Source of the DNA: an uncultured Ignavibacteria bacterium
Lineage (GTDB): Bacteria; Bacteroidota; Ignavibacteria; Kapaibacteriales; UBA2268
DNA: 44,217 nt
Reading direction: 5' to 3'
NCBI GenBank assembly: GCA_903862655.1
Contig: CAIOZA010000025.1
Location: 1-44,217 of the forward strand
The notes under the pieces were generated by a model that saw only the letters and a list, made by a program, of their open reading frames with translations, searched no databases and was not told the origin of the DNA. Made by a program: the position numbers and the translations under genes. Below, in pieces: positions 4,310 to 44,217 of this stretch. The first letter of the stretch is position 1; every line of letters begins with the position of its first letter.

Positions 4310-4326
4310 TTAAATAAGGATAATTC

Positions 4327-7969: not shown

Positions 7970-7974
7970 AAGAT

Positions 7975-13733: not shown

Positions 13734-13735
13734 TT

Positions 13736-14452
13736 ATGAAATTTAAAAGTAAAGAGAATTATTGGACATCGTTATCGGATATAATGACCGGACTAATGAT
13801 AATTTTTCTGTTCATTTCAATTTCCTATATGATTCAGGTTAAGAACCGTGAAAAAGCTAAGGATGACTTAGTTAGAGATTTCCAGAATGTAAAAGTAGAT
13901 TTATTCAATGATCTGAAGAAAGAATTTGAGAACGACTTCAAAGAGGATAAATGGCACGCTGAATTAGATAAAGATTTATCTATCAGATTTTTAAATGAAA
14001 AAGTGCTATTTGATTATAATAAGTTTGTTCTTAAAAATGAATTTAAGTACATATTGGATGATTTTTTTCCAAGATATATGAATATTATAATGAATGATAA
14101 GTATAGAGACAAAATTTTGGAAGTTAGAATTGAAGGTCACACCGATTCCGATGGTGATTATATGTATAATTTAAATCTATCACAAAGTAGAACCAGAAGT
14201 GTTTTAGATTATGTATTATTCAATGGAAATGAATATTTCAAAAATTTAGATAATGACCGTAAGCAATTAATTAAATTTTGGCTAATCTCTAATGGTTTTT
14301 CTAGTGGTAGAATTTTGGACAATAATGCTAAATACTGCATTGAGACAGGGATGACTGAAAACAAAGAAAAATCAAGAAGAGTCGAGTTTAGAATTGTAAC
14401 AAAATCTGATCAGTTGTTAGATGAGATTTTAAAGAAAATTAAGGAACGTTGA
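13736..14452 (+). CDS. zorB: Zorya stator-like protein ZorB (MotB/OmpA domain)
   Basis: A 238-residue protein. A single N-terminal membrane helix (residues 14-35) carries the MotB-type ion-binding aspartate D15 in SLSDIMTGLMIIF. A periplasmic linker leads to an OmpA/MotB peptidoglycan-binding domain with EGHTDSDG and the NLSQSRTRSV helix, ending in RRVEFRI. It pairs with ZorA in the membrane motor, anchoring it to the cell wall. The gaps of 2 bases before and 3 bases after show a tight zorA-zorB-zorE unit. Confidence 0.9.
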   Translation: MKFKSKENYWTSLSDIMTGLMIIFLFISISYMIQVKNREKAKDDLVRDFQNVKVDLFNDLKKEFENDFKEDKWHAELDKDLSIRFLNEKVLFDYNKFVLKNEFKYILDDFFPRYMNIIMNDKYRDKILEVRIEGHTDSDGDYMYNLNLSQSRTRSVLDYVLFNGNEYFKNLDNDRKQLIKFWLISNGFSSGRILDNNAKYCIETGMTENKEKSRRVEFRIVTKSDQLLDEILKKIKER

Positions 14453-19800: not shown

Positions 19801-22800
19801 ATGATGATTAATTCTTCAATACACACCGAAGCAACATTTGAAACAGCTATTGTAAGCCACTTGACAGAAAATGGCTGGTTTTTAGGTAATGACAGCGATT
19901 TCAGTAAAGATCTGGCTTTTGATAAAAAGGCTGTGATAGAGTTTATTCAATCCACTCAACCTAAAGAATGGGATAAACTAAAATCTCTTTATAATAAAGA
20001 TATTGAAAATAGATTTGTTCAGAGGTTGTATAAAGAACTCGATTTACGTGGTCTGCTCGATGTAGTCAGGCATGGTATAGTGGATAGTGGAGTTAAATTC
20101 AAACTCGCATATTTCAAACCTGATAGTGGTTTGAATCAGGAAATAATTGATCTTTACGAAAAGAATAAATTTTACGTGACCAGACAGGTTCATTTCTCAT
20201 CTAAAAACAACAAAAGTATTGACCTGTTGCTTTCTTTGAATGGATTACCCATTGCAACAATAGAACTGAAGAACCATTTTACAGGACAAACTGTTCGGGA
20301 AGCCGTCGAACAATACAAAACAAGCCGTGACCCAAAAGAATTATTGTTCCAATTTAAAAAGAGAGCATTTGTTCATTTTACTGTTGACCCTGATGAAATC
20401 TACTTAACTACAAAACTTGAAGGTACGAATACCAAATTTTTACCATTCAATAAAGGTTATAAAAACGGTGCTGGTAATCCACCTGCTAAAGATTATCTTT
20501 CATACAAATCATCTTACTTTTGGGAAGAAGTTTTAGCTGTTGATAGTTTATTGGAAATCATCGGCAGATTTATTCATATCGAAAAGAAGAAAGTCAAAGT
20601 TGACAGTAAAGAATATTTCAAGGAATCATTACTTTTCCCGAGATACCATCAATTAGATGTTGTCAGGAAATTAACCGCAGACGCAAAGGTGATGGGAACA
20701 GGTCAAAACTATTTAATCGAACATTCTGCCGGTAGCGGTAAAAGCAATTCAATAGCTTGGCTTGCATATAGACTTAACAGCTTATTTAATAATCAGGACA
20801 AGAAGATTTTCGATTCAGTTATAGTAATCACTGATCGAACTGTTCTCGACCAGCAACTTCAGAATACTATCTATCAATTTGACCATAAACATGGTGTTGT
20901 TAAGTGTATAGAAAACAATTCTGAGGAATTAGCAACAGCAATCAAATCCGCTACAAATATAATTATTACTACTCTACAGAAGTTTCCTTTTGCTTTGCAA
21001 TATTTAAGTGAGAAACAAAATAGAAATTATGCATTAATTATTGACGAAGCACATAGCAGTCAAGGCGGTGAAGCAAGTAGAAAAATGACTGAAGCACTTG
21101 CCGGAAAAAATGAAACACTTGATGAAGCTGAGAAAAAAGAGAATGATATTTCTAATCAAGAATTAGACTATGAAGATTTCATAAGAGAAGCCATAATTAA
21201 AAAAGGTCACCAGAAGAACATTAGTATTTTTGCCTTTACAGCAACACCCAAAGCAAAAACTTTGGAGGTTTTCGGAACTAAGAATTTAGAAGGAAAACCA
21301 ATTCCATTCCATCTATATTCAATGAGGCAAGCTATCGAAGAAGGTTTTATTCTCGATGTATTGAAGAACTACACATCTTATAAAGAGTATTATCAATTTT
21401 CTAAAACAATTGAAGATGACCCTGAGTTAAATAAGAAGAAGGCATCAAGAGCGATAGGAAGGTTTGCTTCTTTACATCCTCACAATCTGGCTCAAAAAAC
21501 TGAAATCATGGTTGAGCATTTCAAACAAATAACAATGAAGAAAATTGGTGGTAAAGCTAAAGCAATGGTTGTTACTTCATCGAGAAAGCACGCTCTAAGA
21601 TACTATTTAGAATTTAAAGATTACATTCAAGAAAAAGGTTATTCTCAAATCAAACCACTTGTAGCCTTTTCTGGTACTGTCTTTGACGACTTTTACCCTG
21701 AAGGAATTACTGAAGGTCAGCTAAATCATTTTGGCGAAAAAGAACTTCCAGAGAAATTTGCTACAGATGAGTATCAGGTATTACTTGTAGCAGATAAATA
21801 TCAAACAGGGTATGACCAGCCTTTGCTACATACTATGTATATTGACAAGAAATTGTCTGGTGTTAAAGCTGTCCAGACGTTATCACGATTAAACAGAACC
21901 TATCCCGGTAAAGAAGATACATTTATTTTGGATTTTCAGAATGATAGAGATACAATCATAGACTCGTTCCAGCCATATTACGAACTTACTACATTAACAG
22001 AAACGACAGACCCTAATCATTTATACGATTTGAAAAGCAAGTCCGATGCTTCTGATATTTATTATCAATCCGAAATAGATAGTTTTGCTAAAATTTTCTA
22101 TAATCCCGGTAGTTCAAACTATAAAGATCAAGGTAAGTTATATGCCTTTATTGATCCGGCAGTTGATAGATTCAAAGATAAGAGTGAGGAAATACAGGAT
22201 GACTTTAAAAACATATTGACAAGTTTTGTAAGACTATATTCATTCTTATCTCAAATTCTTCCATTTCAGGATGTAGATCTGGAAAAATTATACTCTTACG
22301 GAAGATTCTTATTAACAAAACTTCCAAAAGTTGATTATACAGAACGATTGAAATTAGATAATGAGGTAGCCTTAGAATATTATCGGTTACAGAAAATTGG
22401 CGAAGGTGATTTGGTTTTACAAATACAAGGTGAATTTGGTTTAAATCCGGTCACTGAAGCTGGAATTGGTAGAGATAAAGAAGAAAAAGAAAGATTATCA
22501 AATATAATTAATGTTCTAAATGACAAGTATGGTACTGAATTTAATGATGCCGATAGACTTTATTTTGAACAATTAGAACAAGCTCTAATTGATAATGAAG
22601 AATTGAAAGTGAGAGCTCACAACAACCCAATCGAAAACTTCAAATATGCCTTCGATGAAGTTTTCATTCAGACTCTAATAGATAGGATGGATTCAAATCA
22701 GGAGATATTCGATAAAATCATGGTTAGCCATGAATTTAAAGAAGATGTACGCAGTTGGCTGACTCAAAAAGTGTACAATAGATTTAATGAGATAAAACTG

Positions 22801-22803
22801 TAA
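19801..22803 (+). CDS. hsdR: Type I restriction enzyme R subunit (translocase/nuclease)
   Basis: A 1000-residue HsdR; ATG at 19801 or 19804. The N-terminal nuclease carries the PD-(D/E)xK core in IDLLLSLNGLPIATIELKNH. The SF2 motor has Walker A SAGSGKS (residues 309-315), DEAH (415-418), FAFTATPKA and QTLSRLNRTYPGK. A C-terminal helical part binds the methylase core. It pulls DNA past the bound complex with ATP and cuts at distance. Length and motifs are complete, so the type I system is likely functional. It is the last core gene of the island, 21 bases before the Clp_N-like gene. Confidence 0.95.
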   Translation: MMINSSIHTEATFETAIVSHLTENGWFLGNDSDFSKDLAFDKKAVIEFIQSTQPKEWDKLKSLYNKDIENRFVQRLYKELDLRGLLDVVRHGIVDSGVKFKLAYFKPDSGLNQEIIDLYEKNKFYVTRQVHFSSKNNKSIDLLLSLNGLPIATIELKNHFTGQTVREAVEQYKTSRDPKELLFQFKKRAFVHFTVDPDEIYLTTKLEGTNTKFLPFNKGYKNGAGNPPAKDYLSYKSSYFWEEVLAVDSLLEIIGRFIHIEKKKVKVDSKEYFKESLLFPRYHQLDVVRKLTADAKVMGTGQNYLIEHSAGSGKSNSIAWLAYRLNSLFNNQDKKIFDSVIVITDRTVLDQQLQNTIYQFDHKHGVVKCIENNSEELATAIKSATNIIITTLQKFPFALQYLSEKQNRNYALIIDEAHSSQGGEASRKMTEALAGKNETLDEAEKKENDISNQELDYEDFIREAIIKKGHQKNISIFAFTATPKAKTLEVFGTKNLEGKPIPFHLYSMRQAIEEGFILDVLKNYTSYKEYYQFSKTIEDDPELNKKKASRAIGRFASLHPHNLAQKTEIMVEHFKQITMKKIGGKAKAMVVTSSRKHALRYYLEFKDYIQEKGYSQIKPLVAFSGTVFDDFYPEGITEGQLNHFGEKELPEKFATDEYQVLLVADKYQTGYDQPLLHTMYIDKKLSGVKAVQTLSRLNRTYPGKEDTFILDFQNDRDTIIDSFQPYYELTTLTETTDPNHLYDLKSKSDASDIYYQSEIDSFAKIFYNPGSSNYKDQGKLYAFIDPAVDRFKDKSEEIQDDFKNILTSFVRLYSFLSQILPFQDVDLEKLYSYGRFLLTKLPKVDYTERLKLDNEVALEYYRLQKIGEGDLVLQIQGEFGLNPVTEAGIGRDKEEKERLSNIINVLNDKYGTEFNDADRLYFEQLEQALIDNEELKVRAHNNPIENFKYAFDEVFIQTLIDRMDSNQEIFDKIMVSHEFKEDVRSWLTQKVYNRFNEIKL

Positions 22804-30711: not shown

Positions 30712-30756
30712 CTTTATAACTATTTTACAAATACTATTTTTATTTTGGAGGTCTTT

Positions 30757-31077
30757 ATGGCAAATGAAATTTTATTAAAAATTATGAAAATATTTCAAAC
30801 TGGTGATTCTGATTTTAATAAGTATATAAGAATTGAAGACAATGTGTTTTGGTTTGGTAATTTGTTTTGCGTTCATAATAATGGGGGAATATTGAAAATC
30901 TATGTAAGCGAGGAATTGACGGATCAATCATGTCAGACAATAATGAAAAGGCTTTTGTTAAATGATATTGATTTAGAAAGATTTCTAATACTAAAATTTG
31001 ATAAAAGATGTTCCATCATACGTGCATATATTGATGTTGAAGAAATAAGGAAAAAAATTAATGATTTAGGAGATTAA
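30757..31077 (+). CDS. Small cassette protein A
   Basis: A 106-residue protein from ATG 30757, with GGAGG 5 bases upstream; an earlier TTG in frame overlaps the ribosome site. It aligns along its length with the next small gene: MANEILLKIMKIF / MTNEVLFKIKKLF, DFNKYIRI / EFNKHVRL, ILKIYVSEEL / RLKIYFSEDL, IMKRLLLNDI / IMKKLIMNDI. No known family. It is an alpha/beta soluble protein of moderate charge. It sits in a repeated unit of repeat, leader, promoter and gene. Confidence 0.7.
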   Translation: MANEILLKIMKIFQTGDSDFNKYIRIEDNVFWFGNLFCVHNNGGILKIYVSEELTDQSCQTIMKRLLLNDIDLERFLILKFDKRCSIIRAYIDVEEIRKKINDLGD

Positions 31078-31113
31078 ATCAACTATTACTATTTTTCTTT
31101 ATTTACACATCAA

Positions 31114-31223
31114 TAGTTAAATTTCTTCTTGCCAACGCATATCAGTCGTGTTTTGATCCGTTTCGATACTTTATAATACTTATAATTTAATACTACTGAC
31201 AATCGATTCACTGAGCTGATTTC
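31114..31223. repeat. 110-bp inverted-arm repeat, copy 3
   Basis: Left arm CGCATATCAGTCGTG and right arm CTGACAATCGATTCACTGAG. It starts 677 bases after copy 2 and 677 before copy 4. Confidence 0.85.
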
Positions 31224-31358
31224 AAAATATCCCTATTTCATATTGGGATTACAGAAATATTTGTTCAGTAGTTTTCAGAATTGGAATTAATGGGTTTATC
31301 ATTGACAAGAGTAAGACAATTTCAAACAAATGATAGCAGATGAATCAATGACTAAATT

Positions 31359-31387
31359 TTAAACTTTTTTTAGTTCATGAATATAAT
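31359..31387 (+). promoter_or_regulatory. Cassette promoter 2
   Basis: TTAAAC (31359-31364), 17-base spacer with TTCATGAA, TATAAT (31382-31387), the same as cassette promoter 1. The ribosome site GGAGG precedes ATG 31434. Confidence 0.65.
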
Positions 31388-31433
31388 CTTTATAACTTTT
31401 TTTACTTTATTAATTTTTATTTAGGAGGTCTTT

Positions 31434-31742
31434 ATGACAAATGAAGTTTTATTTAAAATCAAGAAATTATTTCTAACGAGTGATGCAGAGTTTAACAAAC
31501 ATGTTAGACTTTATGAGAACGTAATATGGATTAATGATCACGTTTGTATTTACATTAAAAATAATAGATTGAAAATATACTTTAGTGAAGATTTAGTTGC
31601 ACAATCTGCAGCATCAATTATGAAAAAACTGATCATGAATGATATTATTCCATTCATTTTTAAAACATTTTATTATGACGAAAAGGGTTCAATACATTTC
31701 GCGGATATTGACGATGAAGTTTTATTTAGCAGTAAAGGATAA
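31434..31742 (+). CDS. Small cassette protein B
   Basis: A 102-residue paralogue of protein A, with AGGAGG 5 bases before the ATG. It shares the N-terminal helix, the EFNK block, the RLKIYFSEDL strand and the IMKKLIMNDI helix. The C-terminal part (YYDEKGSIHFADIDDE) matches protein A weakly and the frameshifted third copy (LNKDGSVSWEHDLKSK) well. Divergent coding sequences under nearly constant leaders suggest diversifying cassettes. Function unknown. Confidence 0.7.
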   Translation: MTNEVLFKIKKLFLTSDAEFNKHVRLYENVIWINDHVCIYIKNNRLKIYFSEDLVAQSAASIMKKLIMNDIIPFIFKTFYYDEKGSIHFADIDDEVLFSSKG

Positions 31743-31790
31743 ATGAAGGAATAAATACAATAATTAACCTTTTCGTTCTCTTCACGGAGA

Positions 31791-31902
31791 TACTTAAATT
31801 TCTTTTTGCCAACGATTGTCAGTCGTATTTTGATACTATTCGATATTTTATACTACTTTTAATTTAGCACGATTGACAATCGATTCACTGAGTTGATTTC
31901 AG
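31791..31902. repeat. 110-bp inverted-arm repeat, copy 4
   Basis: Left arm CGATTGTCAGTCGTA and right arm CACGATTGACAATCG are inverted copies with one mismatch in the core. This variant uses GATTGTCAG where other left arms have GCATATCAG. Confidence 0.85.
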
Positions 31903-32063
31903 ATGGAACATTATTTCAAATTTGGCATATAGAAATAATTGTTCAGTTGTTTTAGGTTTTCAAGTTTTACATTTTGTATCAATGATTTAAATGTTAGTCA
32001 TAACTGAAACAAGATTCAAAGTAATTAGCAGGTGTTAATCAATTTTATGAATCATAGATAATT

Positions 32064-32092
32064 ATAAACTTTTTAAAATTCATGAGTATATC
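32064..32092 (+). promoter_or_regulatory. Cassette promoter 3 (diverged)
   Basis: ATAAAC (32064-32069), 17-base spacer with TTCATGAG, TATATC (32087-32092). It is the same layout as the other cassette promoters with a few changes. GGAGG precedes ATG 32138. Confidence 0.5.
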
Positions 32093-32137
32093 TTTATTAC
32101 TATTTTACAATTATTTTTTTTTATTTAGGAGGTCTTT

Positions 32138-32477
32138 ATGAACGAAGAAAATTATGAACGAATCCAAGAATTGTTTTCAGATGGAACTGAAAAACAAAAA
32201 GCACAATTTTTGATTCATCCTGGCTTTTTTGGGTATTTCCCATTCTTCTTTGCTTTCATGTGCGAAGATACATTATGGATATCATTTAATAAAGACTTTA
32301 AATCCAGAATGGGTATCTATCTTTATGACAACATTCATCAATAATGGTTATCTACCACAATTCCAGTCTCCCCATACTTTAAATAAAGATGGCTCAGTAA
32401 GTTGGGAGCATGATTTGAAGTCTAAATCAAAGAAAGGATTTTTTAAAAAACTTAAAATTGATTTAAATCTTAAGTAG
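32138..32477 (+). pseudogene. Small cassette protein C, interrupted by a +1 shift
   Basis: The frame from ATG 32138 stops after 68 residues (DNIHQ, TAA at 32342-32344). Skipping one T at that stop continues as NGYLPQFQSPHTLNKDGSV... to 32477. The first part resembles proteins A and B distantly (TLWISFNKDF against RLKIYFSEDL). The second part resembles the end of B (NKDGSVSWEHDLKSK against DEKGSIHFADIDDE). Homology on both sides of the break shows one gene. It is either decayed by a one-base insertion or read with a +1 shift. Confidence 0.6.
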
Positions 32478-32607: not shown

Positions 32608-33972
32608 TTATGCAACTTTTGGCATTACATCATCTGAGATAATATTAAAGAAAATTTGTTCTTTGGGTGATTTTCCAACAGATAATTTAACATCAAATTT
32701 CTTTTCTACTAAGTATCTCAAAGCTCTGATGAATGCTGATGACCCATACTTAACTATAGTTGTACTGGAGATAATGATTTGATTGCTTTTCTGTTCAATT
32801 CTAAAATCGTAATAGCTTTTTAGCTTGTCAAATGCTGATACATCAAATATGTTGATTTTTGTGTTATCCATTAGACTTGTTGCTGCATAAGCAAGACTCT
32901 TCAATTCTGTCAATTCCTTATCAGAAAGATATTTCCGCTTGGATTTCTCAAAATACACTGATTTTTCATACTCACGAATGATATTTACTCTAAGCCCAAT
33001 TTTATTATCAATTGCAAACTTGATATTTTCAATGACTTCATCATAAGTTTGTTCCGGACAGATCAGTAAAAATGCTTTAACATCCAGTTTGTACTTCTTT
33101 ATATTGCTAATTGCAGTTTCAATATGCTGAGAGGTAAAGAAAGTCTTATTTATGGATTTTCTAAATGATTCATTAATATTCTCTATGCCAATCTTGATAT
33201 CAACAAAATGATTATCAATAATTAACTGACAAAATTCTTCATTTAAAAATGCCGACACTTCAAATCCTTCCTGCACTTGAAATAATGCTTTCTTCAGATT
33301 CTCGTTTTTCAGTAATTTTAGAAATTCAACAAATTTCGGACTTGCAGCAATGTTATCATCAATAAAGTTAAAGAATCTCACTCCACTGTTATAATAGTAC
33401 TTGATTAGTTCAATGCTCTTGCTAATGTCAAAGAATCTATATTTGCCTTGATGGATCAAACTAACAGGACACATTGAACATGTTCTGGGACATCCCTGTG
33501 TCAATTTCATATTGACTTTCTTATCTCCATCGACTCTTGGATAGTCATTTATCATTTCATCATTAAGAATTACATCATGAACATCTAAGTCGAAATCTAA
33601 AATTGTTACTTTTTCTTTAAATTTGGATTTGATTCGTTCCTTAAATACTGCCGGATAACTTCCAATAATACTCACCGGAACATTTACATTCTTTAGTAAC
33701 TTATCAAAGTATTTATAGAAAGCTCCATCGGGTGCATACTCGCCACAATTAATGATAACTTCCTGATATTTTGAAGCATTTGTATTGATATATTCAGCTC
33801 CGAATTTGACTATTTTTTCTTTAGCATCTGCATTACTACCAAAAGCCATACGATTCAAATCAATAAGAAAGTCTTTATCATTTGCTATTTTCAATAAATT
33901 CATCGGATATGGAAAATATCTTCTATATTTATTTGTTGAGCTGTCGTACAAAGCCTGAACTAACAATTTCAT
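32608..33972 (-). CDS. Radical SAM protein
   Basis: A 454-residue protein with the radical SAM cluster motif CPRTCSMC (C161, C165, C168), preceded by KLTQG. Radical SAM strands follow (FFNFIDDNIAAS, VQEGFEVS, DIKIGIENINE). The N-terminal 150 residues could be a Rossmann-like (B12-binding-type) domain with GEYAPDG, but no DxHxxG motif is seen. The enzyme would use a 4Fe-4S cluster and SAM to make a radical on its substrate. It is last in the operon and starts inside the stop of the PP-loop gene (TAATG), so the two products probably act together, perhaps on a modified nucleotide or base (inferred). Confidence 0.85.
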   Translation of the reverse strand: MKLLVQALYDSSTNKYRRYFPYPMNLLKIANDKDFLIDLNRMAFGSNADAKEKIVKFGAEYINTNASKYQEVIINCGEYAPDGAFYKYFDKLLKNVNVPVSIIGSYPAVFKERIKSKFKEKVTILDFDLDVHDVILNDEMINDYPRVDGDKKVNMKLTQGCPRTCSMCPVSLIHQGKYRFFDISKSIELIKYYYNSGVRFFNFIDDNIAASPKFVEFLKLLKNENLKKALFQVQEGFEVSAFLNEEFCQLIIDNHFVDIKIGIENINESFRKSINKTFFTSQHIETAISNIKKYKLDVKAFLLICPEQTYDEVIENIKFAIDNKIGLRVNIIREYEKSVYFEKSKRKYLSDKELTELKSLAYAATSLMDNTKINIFDVSAFDKLKSYYDFRIEQKSNQIIISSTTIVKYGSSAFIRALRYLVEKKFDVKLSVGKSPKEQIFFNIISDDVMPKVA

Positions 33973-34826
33973 TATAAATCTCCTCTATAAATCTGATTAT
34001 AAATTGATACAGTTCTTTTGTGATTCGTTCCTGCTAAAAGAACTTTTTCGTGATATTCTTTCAGTTTTGAAACTACGTGCATATTGTTCTTGTTTCTATC
34101 ATTGCCAACTTTGTCAAAGAATGGTTGCCATAATTGATATAGAAAGTATTTAATTCTCAAATTGCCATCCTCTGTACAATGATAATCCTGAAATCCATAA
34201 TTCATGGAAAAGTCAAATAGTTCCTTATTAAACAATGGAGCATGTGACTTAAATCCATTATTATTTATAAATTCCATAAGAACATGATGATTTCCTGTTG
34301 TATCATAAAAATGCTTCTTTCTAATTGCATTGTATAAATTCCGTTCCTCATTTTCTGTAATGATACCTTTTTTTCGGTTGTAATAGTTTACAGAAACTTT
34401 CTTTCCAGTCTTGTACAATGCATTATCAAAGAATCCTAACACAAAATCCTGTGTTTGTATTTTCGGGAACATAGAATTAAATACTGTGGCACATTGAACA
34501 TCAATCTGTCTTGAGTTCCGTAACTGGAAAATAACATTCCTGCAATCATCAATTAAATCATTTCGATTCTTAATCGGTATTTTTACTATTTGTAATGGTA
34601 TGTCAAAGAGTGTACAGGCTTTCTTTGTAAATAACAAATCCTGGGATTCAAAATCTCCTACCTGAAATGTTATACAATTTTCAGGTTTTCTATCCATTTC
34701 AATCAATGAATAAAGGGTAATGCTGCTATCAAAGCCTCCTGAGTATGATAATGTTAAATTGCTTGGTAATCGTTCAACTGATTTTAAGAACAATTCTTTC
34801 CATTTTAATTTCCATGAATCAATCAT
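33972..34826 (-). CDS. PP-loop ATPase, asparagine-synthase-like
   Basis: A 284-residue protein with the PP-loop SGGFDSS (residues 29-35), as in asparagine synthase and other ATP pyrophosphatases that adenylate a substrate. C-terminal blocks (APLFNKELFDFSMNY and GNLRIKYFLYQL) follow the asparagine synthase synthetase domain. The glutaminase domain is absent, so ammonia or another amine donor would be used. PP-loop enzymes occur in nucleic-acid modification pathways. It overlaps the radical SAM start by one base and lies 48 bases after the TS-like gene. Confidence 0.8.
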   Translation of the reverse strand: MIDSWKLKWKELFLKSVERLPSNLTLSYSGGFDSSITLYSLIEMDRKPENCITFQVGDFESQDLLFTKKACTLFDIPLQIVKIPIKNRNDLIDDCRNVIFQLRNSRQIDVQCATVFNSMFPKIQTQDFVLGFFDNALYKTGKKVSVNYYNRKKGIITENEERNLYNAIRKKHFYDTTGNHHVLMEFINNNGFKSHAPLFNKELFDFSMNYGFQDYHCTEDGNLRIKYFLYQLWQPFFDKVGNDRNKNNMHVVSKLKEYHEKVLLAGTNHKRTVSIYNQIYRGDL

Positions 34827-34874
34827 TTTCTATTCCTTTCTGAATTAATAAATTTTTATTTCTCTGTAAGATTC

Positions 34875-35582
34875 TCATTGAATATTTCCCAAAATTTCTG
34901 TTTGTTCAGAATAACTCTCTAACATATATTCAATAAAATCAAGTTCATCTCCAGTCGCCAAATGCATTGAATGTGCAATATTGGTTACTTTCTTCAAAGT
35001 TAGTCCGCATTCTTTTGCTATGAATTGCCCCATTTCAATAAGTGCTGTATAATCTGCATATCCGCTCTTTGAAACTCTCTGTGAACGGAAAGTAGCAGTC
35101 ATATATAATTCTTTATTTCTGGGTTTAAAATCAATCGATAATAAACAGGGTTGGTCGTACATTTTGTTGGCATCATAGATGGGATGCCAAATCTGCATAT
35201 TACATCGTTTTGTGTTCTTGCCTTTTTTAAGGATTTTGATCACATTTTCAAATTGATTGTATTTCCCTTCATAATTTATCATCCTGCCCCAGTAAGAATT
35301 TTTCCATCCTTTCTTTACAGTTTCGTATTGATATTCATTATTCTCACTTTTTGTTGGTTCAATGAATGTGACTTGAGAAGCGTAATCTATACGTTTATCT
35401 CCCAAAAATTCTCTGAAATCTTCATCAAATCCTAATTCGAACTCTCCTTCCACGAAATCAGTAAACTCAATTACTCCATTAAGAATTTCAATAATTCCAC
35501 TTGTTTTGTTCCCATTCTTGATTAGCCAATCTGAAACTAACAAGAATGCTCTGGCTGGTGATTTTGCTTTAAATACTATCAT
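34875..35582 (-). CDS. Thymidylate-synthase-like protein
   Basis: A 235-residue protein. The second half follows the thymidylate synthase core: QPC with C146 (catalytic cysteine position), LSIDFKPRNKELYMTATFRSQ with R166-S167 (phosphate-binding RS), then DYTALIEMGQFIAKECGL and AHSMHLA for the final helix and strand. The asparagine that selects uracil over cytosine in ThyA (PFNIASY) is not present; the stretch reads SGYADYT. The N-terminal 100 residues differ from ThyA. Family members methylate or hydroxymethylate C5 of dUMP or dCMP, and phage versions feed DNA hypermodification. It overlaps the methyltransferase end by 14 bases. Confidence 0.75.
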   Translation of the reverse strand: MIVFKAKSPARAFLLVSDWLIKNGNKTSGIIEILNGVIEFTDFVEGEFELGFDEDFREFLGDKRIDYASQVTFIEPTKSENNEYQYETVKKGWKNSYWGRMINYEGKYNQFENVIKILKKGKNTKRCNMQIWHPIYDANKMYDQPCLLSIDFKPRNKELYMTATFRSQRVSKSGYADYTALIEMGQFIAKECGLTLKKVTNIAHSMHLATGDELDFIEYMLESYSEQTEILGNIQ

Positions 35583-36993
35583 TTTTTTTCTCCTTTATAA
35601 ATATAAAAATAGGTTCAAACTTATATCTTTTGTTGTTTATAAAAATCTCATTTATTACATCGTTGCTTCTATCTTTTCGAGCTGCTCCCTGCGTTACACC
35701 CATTAACATTTTTATGGTTTGTACATGCCGGAAACCAGCTCTTTCAGCAATTTCAATTGAAGCAGTTTCCAAATCATAGATTTTGCCCTGATTCTTAATC
35801 TTTGCTATGTTCAGATAGAAATGTCCATTTTCTCTTAATAGTTCATAAATATTCTGTATCATGGGTGACAAAAAGTTATCTATCCAATCCTCATATTCAG
35901 GATATTTAATAAAACTTTGCTCTGAATCATTCAGATAGTGTTCCTTATTGAAATAAGGTGGGCTCGTAAATACAATGTGTAGCTTACCCTTGTGTTTTGC
36001 ATATTCGATATCCTCCAAAACATTTTCTGCGCCTACTGTTTTTATCTTTAATTTAAGATTGACATAAGGATTGATATTCCTTTTCCAGTAAAGAAACAGT
36101 TTTACATATTTTTCAGTAAGATAGAAGTTGGGGTCTGTTCCTAACAGCACTACTTTTCTTTTGAAGTGATCAGATTTTTTGCTGAGTGATGATAACAATC
36201 CTGCGAGTCTTCCGCCCCAGCCCATAGAGGTATCACCTACATACAGGATGCCATCATCGGGGAACTGTTTCAATGCTGTTGTATAAATCCATTTAGCAAC
36301 TGTAACAGGAAAATTCCAAGCAATTTGATTTCCATTGGTTCTGGCAAAGTATTGCAAAAACCATTTTGAAATTGGTTTATGTGGTGATTTTTCCAGAATG
36401 TGGTAAACATTTTTTGCTACAATTCTAAATACTGCGTCATAGAATACATCAGACAGGTAAATCTGCTCATAGATAGAATATTTACGCCCCTGTATTTTCA
36501 CGTGATAAATTTCAGGGAAAAAGTTGTTTATTGCTGATGTTAATCTATTCTTTGATTGTAATCTGATTTCAGTGTTTGTTATCGTTTCTATATCTTTAAT
36601 ATCAAAATCATTCAATTCCATTAATTTGTCAAGTAATAATGGTTCATCAAAATGAAGCAGAAATATCGATTGTTCTCCATTATTGATAGATTTTAGTAAA
36701 GAATCTCTTAGCTCATTTGAATAAGCTCTTAGTTTGCCTTTGTAGGCTTTGAGTTTTCGATAATTTCTTTCTCCTAAGGCTCTTTTGGGATCAGATAATA
36801 CTTGATTATAGAAATCTCTACTACAGTTCAGTTTACTTATTTGTAAAAAGTCTGCAACATCTTCCAGATATAAATCATATATCAGTTTAAAACTCAGGTT
36901 CAGATGGTCGGGAATTACTTCCCGACCAATAAGATTCAGTTCAGTTAAGGCAAAGGAATCCCTATTGCCATAATTCTCTGATTTGGCATTCAT
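35569..36993 (-). CDS. DNA amino-methyltransferase (SPPY type)
   Basis: A 474-residue protein. The C-terminal half is a methyltransferase with the SAM motif DTSMGWGGR (residues 254-262) and the catalytic TSPPY (343-347), typical of N4-cytosine or N6-adenine enzymes. The N-terminal 220 residues are helical and unassigned. No restriction partner lies beside it, so it is an orphan methylase. It is 27 bases after the ParB-like gene and overlaps the TS-like gene, placing it in the modification operon. Whether it makes a plain methylation or is part of the larger pathway is not clear. Confidence 0.82.
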   Translation of the reverse strand: MNAKSENYGNRDSFALTELNLIGREVIPDHLNLSFKLIYDLYLEDVADFLQISKLNCSRDFYNQVLSDPKRALGERNYRKLKAYKGKLRAYSNELRDSLLKSINNGEQSIFLLHFDEPLLLDKLMELNDFDIKDIETITNTEIRLQSKNRLTSAINNFFPEIYHVKIQGRKYSIYEQIYLSDVFYDAVFRIVAKNVYHILEKSPHKPISKWFLQYFARTNGNQIAWNFPVTVAKWIYTTALKQFPDDGILYVGDTSMGWGGRLAGLLSSLSKKSDHFKRKVVLLGTDPNFYLTEKYVKLFLYWKRNINPYVNLKLKIKTVGAENVLEDIEYAKHKGKLHIVFTSPPYFNKEHYLNDSEQSFIKYPEYEDWIDNFLSPMIQNIYELLRENGHFYLNIAKIKNQGKIYDLETASIEIAERAGFRHVQTIKMLMGVTQGAARKDRSNDVINEIFINNKRYKFEPIFIFIKEKKNDSI

Positions 36994-37020
36994 ATTCTTT
37001 CCTTTATTTAATGTTTTAGT

Positions 37021-38211
37021 TTATGCTGCTGCTTTGTTGATTAATTGTAATAGATAATCACTTGGTGAACATAATACTTCATGTGCAAGTTTAACGATTC
37101 GGATTTTAACATCCTTATCAACGGTATCAAATTCATTAATCAATTCATCTTCATTTTCTTCTGGTTCATACGTGTCGCTAGAGTTTGGATGTTCAATAAA
37201 ATTATAAACGTTACTGATTTCATCTGACTCGTCATCTTCAGTTTCTGAATCAGTATCTTCAACGTCCCCATAGCCAGAATGGGTTTGTTTCTGTACAGTT
37301 TTTCCAATAATCGAATATTTTACTTTAGTCGAATCTAATTTATTATCAATCAATTCTCCTATAAATGAAATTAGATTATGTCCTTTTTGTTTTTCTGCTT
37401 CAATCAGTTCAAAATCACTATCAGTTAATTCCAACTTACTTTTCTTTAAGATTTTATACTTATCTTTCAATATTACATTCAGTATGTAATCAACATTTCT
37501 TTTTAAAATTTCTTCAGCTTGAGTTAGATTCTTATTCCCTGCTTTTACTTCATTGAAAACTTCCGGTTCATATTGCCTCAGATTTTTAGCAATATCGCAG
37601 TAGGTAGAATTTACTCTGAAAAGTTTTCCGATAATATTTCTTGTACATGTTTTTTTGAGTTCTTCCTCTGTTAATGGAATCCCTTTTCTCCTTTTACTGA
37701 TTTTTACTGATTTGCCAATTTTGATTAATTCAGCATAGTACCCCTGTACTTCAGTTGATAAACAAGCTTTTTGTGATGAAGAAAGATGATTTCTTTGATA
37801 ATTTTTGGAAATCCAGTAAAAGTGAATGTTTTCTTCTGAATCATCATAGAAATCAAAATGCGGAATAACGTCTGCTATCCTACATGCTTCAAATCGGATT
37901 CTTCCATCTATTATCTCATTATTTCTTGTGATAATGATAGGATCAATAAGTCCGTGTAGCCTTACATCTTCAGTGAATGCTAAAAACTCATCATCACTCA
38001 TCTTCGGATAATTTGTAATTAAAGGATGTTCAACATACTTTGAATAATCAAATGGTATATCAAATTCTACTTCTTCCTGTGTCTCAGGTTGTGCAACTTT
38101 TTGCAACACCTCATTTTGAGGTTGTTGTGTCTTGATTTCTTCCTGAAGTGTTTCTAGTTGCTCAGGATTGTCAACTGTTTTGTTGACTTTAGTTTTAGAT
38201 GCTTTTTTCAT
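37021..38211 (-). CDS. ParB-like nuclease-domain protein
   Basis: A 396-residue protein from ATG 38211, with AGGAG upstream; a longer frame from 38238 lacks a ribosome site. The ParB/Srx domain spans about residues 50-150: GLIDPIIITRNNEIIDG, DGRIRFEAC (102-110) and NYQRNHLSSSQ (137-147). A long helical part follows, then a strongly acidic tail (DTDSETEDDESDE). True partition ParB needs a ParA, and none is present. ParB-domain proteins of this kind are common on phages near methylases and base-modifying enzymes, where they bind or act on DNA with NTP. It follows the HTH gene by 40 bases. Confidence 0.75.
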   Translation of the reverse strand: MKKASKTKVNKTVDNPEQLETLQEEIKTQQPQNEVLQKVAQPETQEEVEFDIPFDYSKYVEHPLITNYPKMSDDEFLAFTEDVRLHGLIDPIIITRNNEIIDGRIRFEACRIADVIPHFDFYDDSEENIHFYWISKNYQRNHLSSSQKACLSTEVQGYYAELIKIGKSVKISKRRKGIPLTEEELKKTCTRNIIGKLFRVNSTYCDIAKNLRQYEPEVFNEVKAGNKNLTQAEEILKRNVDYILNVILKDKYKILKKSKLELTDSDFELIEAEKQKGHNLISFIGELIDNKLDSTKVKYSIIGKTVQKQTHSGYGDVEDTDSETEDDESDEISNVYNFIEHPNSSDTYEPEENEDELINEFDTVDKDVKIRIVKLAHEVLCSPSDYLLQLINKAAA

Positions 38212-38251
38212 AATAACTCCTATTAATAAATTGGACAATAATTAAAACTAA

Positions 38252-38605
38252 CTATCTGAAGCGCTTCAAACTCTTTTGGGTATTTGCTGTGTCAAAGGCA
38301 GTTTTGATTTCTGCTTTGGATTTAATGTGTTTAGAATCTCTGAGTACATAAGCATCCAGGTCTTCTAATTTATAGTAGATACTTTTTCCAGTTTTTCTGA
38401 ATGGAATAGTACGTCTGTTGTTGTAAGCATATAATGTATTTTTGGATAAATTAAGATATGTTGCCGCTTCGTCCAAAGACATAAAGGGTTTTTGGCTTGT
38501 TCCTTTTGAATTGAGATTATTTAGTTTCTCTTCAATAATTTCCTCAATTAAAGCTTGTAGAATCTCTAAGATGTTACTGATTAATTTTTGCTTATCGGTA
38601 TTCAT
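38252..38605 (-). CDS. Excisionase-type helix-turn-helix DNA-binding protein
   Basis: A 117-residue protein. Residues about 42-92 form an HTH_17/MerR-like domain (MSLDEAATYLNLSKNTLYAYNNRRTIPFRKTGKSIYYKLEDLDAYV). A helical, charged N-terminal segment may dimerise. Such proteins act as excisionases or regulators on mobile elements. It is first in the minus-strand operon and may control it. A match to the -7 box TAnnTTTG (TATTTTTG, 38642-38649 on the minus strand) lies 37 bases upstream, without a clear -33 partner. Confidence 0.8.
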   Translation of the reverse strand: MNTDKQKLISNILEILQALIEEIIEEKLNNLNSKGTSQKPFMSLDEAATYLNLSKNTLYAYNNRRTIPFRKTGKSIYYKLEDLDAYVLRDSKHIKSKAEIKTAFDTANTQKSLKRFR

Positions 38606-38869: not shown

Positions 38870-40036
38870 TTAAAGATATTTTTTAAAAACTTCTTGTGCT
38901 TCATTTGTTAAGTGATAATAATGTGTATGTTTTTCATAGGTCTTTTCGGTAATGTAATCAAACTCACCAGTATTAAGTACAGTCCTTGTATTTGAAGTTC
39001 TTATCTTTTTGATTATTTTTTGAATTTCTCTTATATCGACTGAAGTAAAATTTAAGAACCATTCCTTAGATACAATCAGCGGTTTTTTGATTGCTTCATG
39101 TTCAATAATGATAGATAAAATCATGTGTTCCAAGAGTGACATGTTTCTGTCAACAATATTTTCATGGATATATGGGATATAAAATACTTCATTTCCATTA
39201 TAAAGATTGATTCCCGGTAGTTCATCAATATTACATAAAAGATATTCTTTCACAATACATTTTTCTTTTTCATTATATTTTCGTCGAACAATTATATTTC
39301 TATCTTTTTCTATTTCACTAAGTATCTTTTCAACAATCTTTACATTGGACACATTGATAATATATTTGATCCTTTCCGGTGCTAAATCAAACATTAATCC
39401 GTGATGATTAAATGCAAAAATCAATGAATATATATGATACTTTTTACTCTCATGATATTTTAATGAAGGTAGTAGTGGTAGTCTGGTTATCATGCCATCC
39501 TTGATTAGTTGTTCAGGAGTTTGCTGGCTATTTCTGTAATAAGTCTTTAAAATTCTATAGTGTTCATCTTTCAATTCCCAGTTTTTTAAAATAATCTCAA
39601 TACCTTTATTTATTTCCTCTGCATTAATTGGAAAACCCATTCCAAAATTTTCATAAATAAACAACCCTAATTTTGATGATTCTACCTCATATTTAAGAGA
39701 ATAGTTATTTAAAACATATTCAATGATTGATTCTTCTAATTTAGGAATTATAAAATCTGGATCAAGAATATCAATATCATCTCTTGAATATCTTTCTTCA
39801 TATACTTTTGGCAAATGTTTGTAATAATCACAATCTTCAAATGCCTCATTAATACATAATGTATTAAAGTCTAATTGATCAGGTGAAAAGGTGTATCTAT
39901 CTTTAGTTATTAGTTCTCTATAAAAATTTAAGTCCCTTATAAAACCTTTTGTTTGTCTGATATTATCATGGATCAAAGTTTCCAATTCTTCAATTTGCTT
40001 AATAATTTTTGATGGATTAAATTTCTTTAAAGCCAT
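38870..40036 (-). CDS. Hypothetical protein with C-terminal winged-helix-like part
   Basis: A 388-residue protein from ATG 40036, with AAGGA 10 bases upstream; an in-frame start at 40069 is less likely. It is soluble and mostly helical. The C-terminal 80 residues (SKEWFLNFTSVDIREIQKII, then HYYHLTNEAQEVFKKYL) look like a winged helix, which suggests DNA binding or a replication/regulatory role. It lies between the mobile operon and the core genes and is separate from both (264 and 235 bases). No family is recognised. Confidence 0.6.
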   Translation of the reverse strand: MALKKFNPSKIIKQIEELETLIHDNIRQTKGFIRDLNFYRELITKDRYTFSPDQLDFNTLCINEAFEDCDYYKHLPKVYEERYSRDDIDILDPDFIIPKLEESIIEYVLNNYSLKYEVESSKLGLFIYENFGMGFPINAEEINKGIEIILKNWELKDEHYRILKTYYRNSQQTPEQLIKDGMITRLPLLPSLKYHESKKYHIYSLIFAFNHHGLMFDLAPERIKYIINVSNVKIVEKILSEIEKDRNIIVRRKYNEKEKCIVKEYLLCNIDELPGINLYNGNEVFYIPYIHENIVDRNMSLLEHMILSIIIEHEAIKKPLIVSKEWFLNFTSVDIREIQKIIKKIRTSNTRTVLNTGEFDYITEKTYEKHTHYYHLTNEAQEVFKKYL

Positions 40037-40271
40037 TTGACAATTTCCTTCTATTGTTAAAATATTCAAATAATCATTTATTGAATAGTAAAAATAAGTA
40101 TTTATAAGTTCAATTTTATTTAGATTTTACTATACTTGTTTTCTATGAAGTTTATATTTCATTAGATTTTTTTGGACTTGAAATGAGACTAAATTGAGAC
40201 TATAGTAATTTTAGTAATTTATAAAAATAAGTACCAGACTCTCTTTTGATAGTTGTTTAGTGTTTTTTGAT

Positions 40272-41501
40272 TTATTCATTACGTATAGAATCGATAATAT
40301 TTTGGTTCGATGCTCTTTTTGCCGGATAAAGTGCCGCAAGGAATGACAAACTGAGCGAAACGACAACTACTAACAAAACATCGAATGTTCGGACTTCAAC
40401 CGGTAGTGATGTGATCAGATACTGAGCTGAGTTGAGCTCGAACCAGTTAAAATGAATCTGACCATAACACAATGCTAACCCTATGACTGTGCCAAGGAAT
40501 GTGCTCGTTGATCCGATTAACATTCCAAGATAAAGGTAAGTCTTTAAAATAGATTTATCGGTCGATCCAAGTGATTTCATTACAGCGATGTCTGATTTTT
40601 TTTCAAAAACTGTCATTGCAAGTGAAGCGAGTACATTGAAAACAGCTATGACGATTATCAGACTTAGAACGATAAACACTGATATTCTCTCGAACTGAAG
40701 TATGTTGTATAACTCTTTGTGTAGATCATACCAAGTGAGAATTTCACAATTTTTAAAAACATTCTTAAGTAAGTTTTTATTTTTTTCTGAATCATCTACT
40801 CTCTTTAGTCGTATATCAATTCCTGATGCTGAGTTTAATGGAGTGCTGAGCAGTACAGAGGCAAGCTCTATTGATGTCAATCCTAGTGTGTTGTCGTACT
40901 CAGGGTTATTTGTTTGGAAGATGGATGAAACCGTAAATTCTACACCCTGCTGACGAGACATAGATTTGATAGAGTATTCAACTGAGTTTAATGACATCAG
41001 ATAGATATTATCACCAGGAACTGCTTTGAGTGAATATGCGAGATTTGCTCCAAGAGCAATGTATCTTTTTCCAGCATGTTCACCTATGAAAAACTTACCG
41101 GAAACACTACTATTGCCAATCCCGGAAACATTTGGAAATTGTTTGGCGTTATATCCACTAATCTGAACAACCTTCATATTGTCACTTTTGACAGCTATGA
41201 CTCTTCCCTGTACAACCGGAGAATATCCACCGATGTCTTTGTAGTTAGCTATTTTTTTTTCATAAGAAGCATAATTCTCAAGCCAGGCACCATTCGATGG
41301 TACAATTCGTATATGTGGATCAAGACCTATTAGCTGCTTTTCAGTGAATTCACCGAAACCGTTAAAGATAGACATGACTATGATTAGAGCCGCAACACCG
41401 ATAACAATACCGATTATTGAGATTATTGTTATGAAAGTAATGAAGTGAAAACTTCTAATAGTAAAGATATATCTGACAGCAATCTTAAATGGCAAATTCA
41501 T
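40272..41501 (-). CDS. LolC/LolE-type lipoprotein-release ABC permease
   Basis: A 409-residue protein from ATG 41501. The first membrane helix carries GIVIGVAALIIVMSIFNGF, the signature of LolC/LolE. A periplasmic domain of about 200 residues follows, then three C-terminal membrane helices (VFIVLSLIIVIAVFNVLASLAM, then YLGMLIGSTSTFLGTVIGLAL, then LLVVVVSLSLSFLAALYPA) with the FtsX-like end YPAKRASNQNIIDSIR. With the ATPase LolD it passes lipoproteins to LolA for transport to the outer membrane, so the organism is diderm. It starts 12 bases after ppk1. Confidence 0.88.
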   Translation of the reverse strand: MNLPFKIAVRYIFTIRSFHFITFITIISIIGIVIGVAALIIVMSIFNGFGEFTEKQLIGLDPHIRIVPSNGAWLENYASYEKKIANYKDIGGYSPVVQGRVIAVKSDNMKVVQISGYNAKQFPNVSGIGNSSVSGKFFIGEHAGKRYIALGANLAYSLKAVPGDNIYLMSLNSVEYSIKSMSRQQGVEFTVSSIFQTNNPEYDNTLGLTSIELASVLLSTPLNSASGIDIRLKRVDDSEKNKNLLKNVFKNCEILTWYDLHKELYNILQFERISVFIVLSLIIVIAVFNVLASLAMTVFEKKSDIAVMKSLGSTDKSILKTYLYLGMLIGSTSTFLGTVIGLALCYGQIHFNWFELNSAQYLITSLPVEVRTFDVLLVVVVSLSLSFLAALYPAKRASNQNIIDSIRNE

Positions 41502-41513
41502 TAACAAATAACC

Positions 41514-43652
41514 TTAACTAAAATTTTTAATGTAAGGACTAATTTTCTGCTTCTTCTTTTTATATTTTTTAACAACATTTATCAAATGATCCTGAATGGA
41601 GAATGGAACTTCTTCATTTTGTGGTTCAATTTTTTCGTAATTACCACTGCTCAGAAGTCTCCAGGATTTCTTATTATCCTGCCAATAGAGGTGAAGCAAA
41701 TCAAATAGATTCTTCTTCAAATGACCATCAAGAATCGGGAACATGAGTTCAACACGTCTGTGAAGATTTCGTGTCATCCAGTCGGCACTTGAAAGATATA
41801 TCTCACTTTCGCCTGCATTCTGAAAATAAAAGATTCTGCTATGTTCGAGGAATCTCCCCAGAATGCTTCTTACTTCTATGTTATCACTTATACCTGGAAT
41901 GCCCGGTTTGAGGCAACAAATACCTCTTACTACCAGTTGAATTTTAACACCCTTTTGTGATGCGCGATAGAGTGCTTGAGTAACTTCATCGTGAGCAATA
42001 GCATTCATTTTTGCAAAAATAAACCCGGGATTTTCCGCTGTATGCATAGCTGCTTCGCGATCAATCAACTCGACGATCTTCTTTCTGAGGTGATTGGGAG
42101 CTACTATCAGATGATTCCAATCTTTATGATAGGAATAACCAGTAAGAAAATTAAACAAATGTATTGCATCGATTCCGAACTCTTCGTTAGAAGTAAAGAA
42201 GCCAATATCGGTATAAAGTCTGGCAGTTGATCTGTTATAATTACCTGTGCCAAGGTGCACATAGGTTCTGAGTGTCTTTCCTTCCCGACGGACTACCATA
42301 GCAATTTTGCAATGAGTTTTGAGGCCGAGAACACCGTAAACGACGTAAACACCTGCCTCTTCAAGCTCCTTTGCCCAGATAATATTATTCTCTTCATCAA
42401 ATCTGGCTTTTAATTCAACAAAAGCAGTTACCTGCTTGCCATTTTCAGCGGCTTGTTTCAAAGCGGCAACAATTGGTGAATTCATGCCTGCACGATAAAG
42501 AGTTATCTTTATAGCAACTACATCCGGACAAGTTGCGGACGTTGTCAAGAATTTTAGAACACTATTTGTGAATGAATCGTAAGGATGATGAACAAGGATA
42601 TCCTTCTTACGTAGTAGATCGAATAATTCTGGTCCATCTTTCAGAAGGGCATTTTGTGTTCTGGTCTGGAATGGTGTATCCTTCAGGTGGCGGATGTCCA
42701 GTTTCATTAACTGCATTAAATCAGGCAGATGAAGAGGTCTGTTGTGTGAATAAACATCATCCGGCTTGAGATCAAGAGATTTCATGAGGCTGTTAACCAT
42801 ATATGCCGGCATATCGTCAGAAACTTCAAGTCGAACGGCAGCTGTTTCCCATTTGCGGTGTTTGACCTGTTCAGAAATTTCCAAAAGTAAATCTTCAGCT
42901 TCGTCTTCTGCTATTTCGATGTCGGCATCTCGGGTAACACGGAATGTATTTGCGAATTCAACTTCCAGACCCGGGAAAAGAATGCTTGCATAAGCCTTAA
43001 CGACTTGTTCGAGCCTGACGAAGTGATATTGTCCATCTACGCGGGGTATTTCTATAAATCTAGCCAATTGAGAAGAAAGCTGAAGAATTGCAATTCTTTT
43101 CTCTATAGTTTTCTTTTGCTTATCGATAAGAGAAAAAGCAACATTTAGTGAGCGGTTGATAATCCGTGGGAACGGATGAGCCGGATCAAGACTCAAGGGA
43201 GTAAGTACAGGAAGAAGGAAATTACAGAAATAATCTTTTAAAAAATCTTTCTCTGTCTTATTTAGATCTCTTAGGCTATGGAAGTAAATTCCTTCATTCT
43301 CAAGTGCAGGAAATATATCATCCATTAATATCTTTTCCTGTCGGGAATATTCTGATACTAATCGTTTCCTGATTTCCTTCAACTGCTGGCTAGGAGTCAT
43401 TCCGTCAGTTGACAGATCTATTACTCCGGCTTGTATCTGGTCTCTGAGACCGGCAACTCTTATCATGAAGAATTCGTCAAGATTTGAACTATAGATAGAA
43501 ATAAATTTCAATCTTTCCAATAGTGGATGCTCAGGAGATTCTGCTTCTGACAAAACTCTTTTGTTAAATTCAAGAAAGCTCAATTCCCTGTTAAAATAGT
43601 ATTCCGCAGACTTTAGATTTAACTTTACTTCTGTTTGATTTTCAGTTGTCAT
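41514..43652 (-). CDS. ppk1: Polyphosphate kinase 1
   Basis: A 712-residue Ppk1 of normal length. The N domain opens with NRELSFLEFNKRVL. The catalytic half has AIKITLYRAG, GLKTHCK with the phosphorylated histidine (H447), VHLGTGNYN and the second histidine in FLEHSRIFYF (H604). It makes inorganic polyphosphate reversibly from ATP. It lies 18 bases after pgi and 12 before the LolC/E gene, so these core genes may be one operon. Confidence 0.97.
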   Translation of the reverse strand: MTTENQTEVKLNLKSAEYYFNRELSFLEFNKRVLSEAESPEHPLLERLKFISIYSSNLDEFFMIRVAGLRDQIQAGVIDLSTDGMTPSQQLKEIRKRLVSEYSRQEKILMDDIFPALENEGIYFHSLRDLNKTEKDFLKDYFCNFLLPVLTPLSLDPAHPFPRIINRSLNVAFSLIDKQKKTIEKRIAILQLSSQLARFIEIPRVDGQYHFVRLEQVVKAYASILFPGLEVEFANTFRVTRDADIEIAEDEAEDLLLEISEQVKHRKWETAAVRLEVSDDMPAYMVNSLMKSLDLKPDDVYSHNRPLHLPDLMQLMKLDIRHLKDTPFQTRTQNALLKDGPELFDLLRKKDILVHHPYDSFTNSVLKFLTTSATCPDVVAIKITLYRAGMNSPIVAALKQAAENGKQVTAFVELKARFDEENNIIWAKELEEAGVYVVYGVLGLKTHCKIAMVVRREGKTLRTYVHLGTGNYNRSTARLYTDIGFFTSNEEFGIDAIHLFNFLTGYSYHKDWNHLIVAPNHLRKKIVELIDREAAMHTAENPGFIFAKMNAIAHDEVTQALYRASQKGVKIQLVVRGICCLKPGIPGISDNIEVRSILGRFLEHSRIFYFQNAGESEIYLSSADWMTRNLHRRVELMFPILDGHLKKNLFDLLHLYWQDNKKSWRLLSSGNYEKIEPQNEEVPFSIQDHLINVVKKYKKKKQKISPYIKNFS

Positions 43653-43670
43653 AATAATTACTTTTTTGTT

Positions 43671-44217
<547 letters not shown>

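Follow-up and report, generated by a model that had tools for sequence, protein, structure and literature searches.

A six-gene operon of an uncultured Ignavibacteria bacterium (Bacteroidota; Kapaibacteriales; UBA2268) probably encodes a pathway that hypermodifies cytosine in DNA, giving C5 an amide-ended side chain by means of a thymidylate synthase (TS)-like enzyme and a radical S-adenosylmethionine (SAM) enzyme (rSAM) instead of CmoA and CmoX, and it is probably borne by a mobile element; we give this reading a probability of about 68%. The operon lies in contig CAIOZA010000025.1 of GenBank assembly GCA_903862655.1, of which we analyzed positions 1 to 44,217 (hereafter the window, the whole stretch of 44,217 nt). 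The evidence for the gene set and for its unity is good, and the set would represent a variant of phage-type DNA hypermodification. An initial annotation, made from the letters of the window, had proposed a DNA-modification operon here, and this proposal is now supported by the conserved co-occurrence of its genes in viral contigs and by a relative of its PP-loop protein that is proven to act on DNA cytosine. TS-type cytosine C5 chemistry and CmoY-type amide ligation are each known; what is new, within the literature searched, is to find both together with an rSAM in one operon. The statement of the annotation that no described pathway has exactly this set holds to the same extent, in that a search spanning part of the literature found none.

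All six open reading frames (ORFs) proposed for the operon are present on the minus strand, separated by short gaps or overlaps. In the 5' to 3' direction of the operon, from 38605 down to 32608, they are:

38252-38605, minus strand: DNA-binding protein of the HTH_17/excisionase type, the first gene (Pfam HTH_17 2.1e-12, TIGR01764 2.1e-8)
37021-38238, minus strand: ParB-like protein (PHROG 12047, ParB-like, 8.9e-8; PHROG 21315 3.1e-11; Pfam ParB_N weak at 0.069)
35569-36993, minus strand: N6/N4-type DNA methyltransferase, MT (Pfam PF01555 N6_N4_Mtase 1.7e-6, PHROG 12517 3.6e-9)
34875-35582, minus strand: TS-superfamily enzyme (Pfam Thymidylat_synt 3.1e-9, TIGR03283 7.5e-22)
33972-34826, minus strand: stand-alone PP-loop ATP-dependent amide ligase of the CmoY type, without a glutaminase domain (PHROG 26038 3.6e-12; Pfam ATP_bind_3 weak at 0.069)
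32608-33972, minus strand: radical SAM enzyme (Pfam PF04055 Radical_SAM 1e-15; CxxxCxxC motif, read as CPRTCSMC)

Successive intergenic distances are +13, +27, -14 (an overlap), +48, and -1 nt, and the start codons of MT, TS, the PP-loop gene, and rSAM are each closely preceded by a purine-rich stretch (GGAG/GGAA). The helix-turn-helix (HTH) protein is a possible regulator. The ParB-like protein has 405 aa as listed, with a TTG start and an in-frame ATG slightly downstream, and one deposited phage record matched it. The MT comprises an N-terminal region of ~210 aa, a motif I-like stretch (GDTSMGWGGRLAG, by eye), and the catalytic motif TSPPYF; a search of the operon proteins returned no C5-methylase Pfam match.

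Catalytic enzymes of the operon

To the window TS we aligned 13 of the 18 full-length viral TS sequences described below, omitting the near-identical L119, L121, L122, L071, and L127 (L numbers denote viral contigs or loci). C146, R166, S167, D177, and H207 are invariant across the 14 sequences, so the catalytic Cys146 and Asp177, the marks of a TS enzyme acting on deoxycytidine or cytidine monophosphate (dCMP or CMP), are both present in every one. The truncated TS genes of L040 and L062 still show the stretch SKSGYAD. We take the alignment numbering to coincide, by chance, with that of Escherichia coli TS, in which position 169 is presumably an Asp that contacts folate; at this position, the only one compared in this respect, all 14 sequences have Arg or Ala, and the solved structure 9iqu has, by alignment, Asn. 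According to excerpts of one report (PMC8670742), Asp177 can switch TS from deoxyuridine monophosphate to dCMP and is the usual state in modified contigs.

Structural comparison points to the same base. The predicted TS structure (pLDDT 76.8) matches 9iqc, 9iqu, and MilA (5b6e) at effectively tied Z scores of 19.0, 18.9, and 18.7, and canonical TS structures at 17.6 and below. PDB titles identify 9iqc as a riboflavin-dependent monooxygenase with dCMP and FAD, and 9iqu as the dCMP hydroxylase AfhB of phage HY126. MilA (2e-7) and 9iqu (9.4e-6) also lead a profile search of the PDB, in which canonical TS reach 0.06 or worse, and the closest solved relatives of the enzyme act on CMP or dCMP. Both 5-hydroxy-dCMP (5-hodCMP) synthase and 5-hydroxymethyldeoxycytidine (5-hmdC) synthase belong to the TS superfamily, as stated in excerpts of PMC13390438. 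We predict from residues and modeled fold that the window enzyme is a C5 hydroxymethylase or hydroxylase of a cytosine nucleotide, the cytosine base being well supported. That the TS-like enzyme alters C5 of a nucleotide, as first annotated, thus agrees with the data, with cytosine the likely base on the strength of Asp177 and the solved relatives. The narrower claim that it installs a one-carbon group stands only in part: the hydroxymethylase MilA is among the best structural matches, but it is tied with a dCMP hydroxylase, whose name implies no added carbon, and in place of Asp169 all 14 sequences have Arg or Ala.

A plain thymidylate synthase of the cell or element would fit a gene that is the sole PF00303 match of the genome and that matches TIGR03283. 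The TIGR03283 score, 77.8 bits, is nevertheless under the cut-off of 174.55, the host genome has ThyX (1.7e-58) for dTMP, and the aligned sequences have Asp177 in 14/14 and Asp169 in 0/14. With ThyX present and residues 177 and 169 different, we rejected a role as host thymidylate synthase and regard the explanation as a whole as scarcely credible.

The PP-loop protein retains the SGGxDS motif (LSYSGGFDSS) and is recovered by a profile of six phage CmoY-type ligases at an E value of 1e-25 (Z set to 1000), and hhalign against the same profile gives 98.7% across 243 columns. Its family, PHROG 26038, also takes in the ligases of Staphylococcus phage F1, Synechococcus phage S-B05 (2.2e-30), Pseudomonas phage PaBG, Erwinia phage Y3, Dickeya phage AD1, and Salmonella phage Sen-NF. 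A CmoA relative lies near the ligase in five of these six phages (Sen-NF excepted), and a CmoX relative in three (F1, PaBG, and S-B05, the last being the query itself). The ligases of S-B05 and S-B43 give identical match values, and in the DNA of Synechococcus phage S-B43, CmoY joins glycine to 5-carboxymethylcytosine (excerpts of PMC12783734). Membership in the CmoY family supports the earlier suggestion that the PP-loop enzyme activates or amidates. One deposited phage record matched the window ligase.

Excerpts of PMC12783734 distinguish two groups of CmoY-type ligases: members of one should take an amino acid as substrate, and those of the other, which bear a glutaminase domain, ammonia. 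The window ligase is of the stand-alone type, and the TS-bearing viruses described below have the glutaminase type (in L065, GATase_7 1.8e-33 and Asn_synthase 1.7e-42). Two distinct amide ligases, only distantly alike, thus occupy one slot beside the same TS, which suggests that the step shared by the window and viral sets is amide formation on the TS-derived base.

The model of the rSAM (pLDDT 72.4, three sequences) shows a barrel fold with an N-terminal alpha/beta domain and matches AprD4 at Z 20.0, RimO and MiaB at 18.7, and B12 enzymes at 17.7 and below; no PDB chain was matched by the rSAM sequence at a meaningful level. The resemblance to MiaB and RimO, 1.3 below AprD4, and a weak partial match to RaSEA (3.4e-8, far under its cut-off) would be expected of an operon that modifies RNA, for example a tRNA wobble cytidine, rather than DNA. 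The TSPPYF signature of DNA methyltransferases, the ParB-like partner, the viral setting, and the DNA-acting CmoY relative make such a target very unlikely.

Recurrence in uncultured viral contigs

A scan of viral contigs with an MT alignment confirmed at least 592 relatives, and the best 80 loci among them (L035-L114) were analyzed. A scan with the TS alignment returned 17 loci, which together with L040, L062, and L130 make 20 distinct uncultured viral contigs (L065 and L120 are the same contig and were counted once). Viral TS relatives are 43-52% identical to the window TS where full length. Clustering of the 18 full-length sequences yields 13 groups at 99% identity, nine at 95%, and three at 80%; with so few groups, the contigs are moderately independent of one another.

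Gene order in these contigs is highly regular. Where the gene preceding TS is in view (18 contigs), it is MT in 17, overlapping TS by 4 nt in 15 and standing 3 nt apart in two; in the exception, L130, an rSAM is upstream instead. Downstream of TS, all 20 contigs carry an AsnB-type (asparagine-synthetase-type) ligase, as the next gene in 19 and the next but one in L062. The ligase is followed in 20/20 by a PALP-type pyridoxal phosphate (PLP) gene, with an rSAM between the two in L118; Pfam supports the PALP label weakly (0.0023) and PHROG 7093 more clearly (threonine dehydratase, 5.9e-25). Co-occurrence of TS and ligase is also seen in the best 80 MT loci, which were chosen by MT alone: TS is present in five and an AsnB-type ligase of one cluster in six, and all five loci with TS have the ligase (Fisher p 2.5e-7, a nominal value, some loci being related).

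Relatives of the window rSAM occur in the same surroundings. It is 39% identical to the rSAM of L118 (437 aligned positions) and 37% to that of L130 (434 positions), the one further relative found when the viral contigs were scanned with two rSAM sequences. L118 carries the tail of an MT followed by TS, ligase, rSAM, and PALP, which reproduces the window order MT-TS-ligase-rSAM, and L130 carries rSAM-TS-ligase-PALP, so that both viral relatives (2/2) stand beside TS, ligase, and PALP genes. Conservation in viral contigs shows that MT, TS, ligase, and rSAM are not linked by chance. The viral clusters were not seen to include the HTH and ParB-like genes. For the rSAM, which the initial annotation had complete the modified base, what the data show is the linkage to TS and ligase.

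The products of TS, ligase, and rSAM might alternatively be a free modified nucleotide or nucleoside, antibiotic-like or signaling, and not modified DNA. The model for such a route is mildiomycin, since its CMP 5-hydroxymethylase MilA is among the closest solved relatives, is the closest of them to the window TS in sequence, and has an Asp aligned at position 177. MilA acts on CMP for the antibiotic, and mildiomycin biosynthesis also uses rSAM and PLP enzymes. The window TS differs in being shorter and in lying beside a DNA methyltransferase gene. We hold a free product to be rather unlikely, given that MT overlaps or abuts TS in 17/18 viral contigs in view, that a member of the ligase family is proven on DNA (excerpts of PMC12783734), and that DNA-polymerase- and sliding-clamp-like genes (named by eye) lie a few genes from the clusters of L040 and L062.

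The viral loci also vary in several respects. L115 and L116 have a divergent, shorter MT (432 aa; E values of 1e-13 and 2e-14 to the window MT) upstream of TS, with the 4-nt overlap kept. In L118, at 2447-2500, the rSAM starts with residues like those of PALP N-termini (IQTPxExYTL, by eye), as if it had been inserted at the PALP start. A different CxxxCxxC protein is encoded two genes upstream of MT in L065/L120, L121, and L122, which form one TS group, and another ~15 kb away from the cluster in L040. Within the best 80 MT loci, a PALP-type gene lies no more than three genes from MT in 32, and MT loci also recur with Asp/Arg-hydroxylase-like genes (one representative tested) and glycosyltransferase-like genes (by eye). 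The varied partners of MT hint at several unknown modification cassettes. L053, which lacks TS, represents a further cassette type: at 2539-10318, an AsnB-type ligase is accompanied by a gene resembling dehydrogenases (by eye), a member of the hydroxylase-like cluster, a PALP gene, and MT in two copies.

Genomic setting and distribution

The operon has a GC content of 0.313, against 0.375 for the genes that flank it at 40272-44217, by eye ppk and an FtsX-type permease, which resemble chromosomal genes. A primase 2.7 kb past the end of the rSAM resembles Cellulophaga phage primases (27% identity, 1e-19), and on account of this phage-type gene the operon may sit in a mobile element, beside a defense-rich stretch. 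A plasmid search with the protein encoded at 38870-40069 gave no matches. Among the operon genes, PADLOC assigned only a weak type II methyltransferase label, to MT, and none to TS, ligase, rSAM, or the ParB-like gene.

Elsewhere in the window, a ZorA/ZorB pair at 12276-14452 (best profiles ZorA2 1.8e-103 and ZorB2 4.1e-75) is surrounded by type I restriction genes at 8661-10412 and 19801-22803 and by a GmrSD-type gene at 10439-12190 (5.2e-29). At 106-4309, kinase-like and PP2C genes with a VWA-like gene between them (by eye) possibly form a phospho-signaling defense set. Just beyond the rSAM end, the plus strand at 30745-32344 has a pair of small ORFs (110 and 102 aa) that resemble each other and another that resembles them more loosely, as judged by eye.

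The gene set is rare in bacteria. A TS search of 100 genomes, own genome included (threshold 1e-3), matched that genome alone, this search being insensitive to ordinary ThyA. Across 395 genomes of the phylum, the PP-loop protein matched itself and a 477-aa protein that by eye resembles an asparagine synthetase. In 82 of 391 genomes of the class, own included, the ligase profile gave matches at 1e-5. Outside the own genome, those below 1e-8 all lie in open frames of 437-644 aa, a length typical of asparagine synthetases, and we did not consider them further; a few weaker matches, in frames of 230-377 aa, cover only 60-110 profile positions. Pattern scans with the TS and rSAM alignments, which have limited reach, found no relatives in one genome per species (84,980 species).

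Deposited phages and plasmids yielded only distant matches to the window TS, at 26.7-30.0% identity in 23 phage records and at 24.8 and 29.3% in two plasmids. No deposited phage record was matched by the window rSAM, the L118 rSAM, or the L065 TS, and by annotation the neighborhoods inspected in Gordonia phage Sixama and a Pantoea plasmid contain no ligase or rSAM. Viral scans with the single PP-loop, rSAM, and MT proteins and with a two-row ligase alignment gave no relatives, and a scan with the single window TS gave one distant contig, L002.

Proposed pathway and its relation to known systems

In the pathway we propose, the TS-like enzyme would first functionalize C5 of a cytosine nucleotide with a hydroxymethyl or hydroxyl group, the rSAM would then build or rearrange the C5 side chain, and the CmoY-type ligase would adenylate a side-chain carboxylate and join an amine to it; the second and third steps may be reversed. 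For the stand-alone ligase of the window, the amine could be glycine or another amino acid, and for the viral AsnB type, ammonia derived from glutamine. The ParB-like protein and MT would act on DNA, placing a second mark or guiding the other enzymes, with the HTH protein as regulator, and the modification would likely shield the element's DNA from restriction. We infer that DNA is the target, and likewise in which order the steps run, where the carboxylate comes from, and what the product is and does.

Several results weigh against this proposal. Its main gap is the carboxylate-making step, for which no enzyme was identified, the host having no CmoA over cut-off and the operon no C5-type methylase. 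TIGR00740 gave four sub-threshold matches in the host genome (98.35% complete), none among the operon genes, and we accordingly discarded a CmoA-supplied carboxymethyl route. Eight viral records, all fragments, contain no T4-type deoxynucleoside monophosphate kinase or dCMP deaminase, so a supply at the nucleotide level is not supported. The window is without the PALP gene found in 20/20 viral clusters and its ligase is without the GATase domain, which makes the operon a variant and not the same cassette; the viral AsnB-type profile does not detect the window ligase, and direct alignments of the two are weak (2e-5 and 1e-6). A window-type rSAM is in view in only two of the 20 viral TS contigs, the other 18 being without it in the available stretch, and is therefore optional there; PALP is constant, and rSAM and PALP may thus supply alternative or successive steps. 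No relative of the ParB-like protein was found in the viral loci searched (L130 lay outside that search), and no second bacterial copy in two pattern scans and three related-genome searches. Lastly, no TS was detected in the available stretch of 75 of the best 80 MT loci (of at least 592).

The last observation would also be expected if the operon joined two unrelated units, a ParB-like gene paired with an orphan MT (making N4-methylcytosine or N6-methyladenine) and, beside it, a metabolic unit of TS, ligase, and rSAM. L130, which by its ORF list has no MT in its 8.9 kb, fits such a division, as do excerpts describing ParB-methyltransferase fusions as common in phages (PMC12704722) and ParB genes near CmoX (PMC12783734). 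The direct MT-TS succession in 17 of 18 viral contigs, repeated in the window, argues for a single unit, and we consider two units unlikely.

The same overlapping or abutting genes, in the viral contigs and in the window, raise another possibility, which we offer with low confidence: TS may act on cytosine already in DNA, partnering a base-flipping MT, and TS, ligase, and rSAM may build the C5 amide directly on the double helix.

The proposed cytosine pathway combines features of several phage systems. Thymidine hypermodification in phages employs a 5-hydroxymethyldeoxyuridine kinase, aGPT-PPlase, a radical SAM isomerase, and PLP enzymes. Like the present set, it pairs a TS homologue with an rSAM, and the viral clusters also share its use of a PLP enzyme; it differs in that the window Asp177 points to cytosine and that an ATP-dependent amide ligase is present. 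Phage 5-hmdCMP and 5-hodCMP synthases, on the evidence of excerpts of PMC8670742 and PMC13390438, are of the same TS superfamily as the window enzyme, for which Asp177 leads us to expect a cytosine substrate. The phage systems built on them continue with carbamoylation, glucosylation, or arabinosylation, whereas the partners in the window are an amide ligase and an rSAM.

The CmoA-CmoX-CmoY system of phage S-B43, which makes 5-carboxymethylcytosine and 5-glycylcarboxymethylcytosine (excerpts of PMC12783734), has the same CmoY-type PP-loop ligase and places its side chain at cytosine C5, as we expect of the window set. According to those excerpts, ParB-domain proteins are often nearby, and stand-alone and glutaminase-bearing ligases occur there too. 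The window differs in its TS-like enzyme, rSAM, and N6/N4-type MT and in a host without CmoA over cut-off. CmoX is marked by SPPC plus an Arg, whereas the operon MT is of the N6/N4 type with TSPPYF, and the operon contains no C5-type CmoX.

If the proposed pathway is correct, DNA cytosines capped by an amide would have a second biosynthetic route, with the rSAM linking two logics of hypermodification, TS-type C5 functionalization and CmoY-type amide ligation, and the kit would occur both in uncultured viruses and in a bacterial genome. The operon also offers defined sets of genes for expression and new ligases with which DNA could be labeled.

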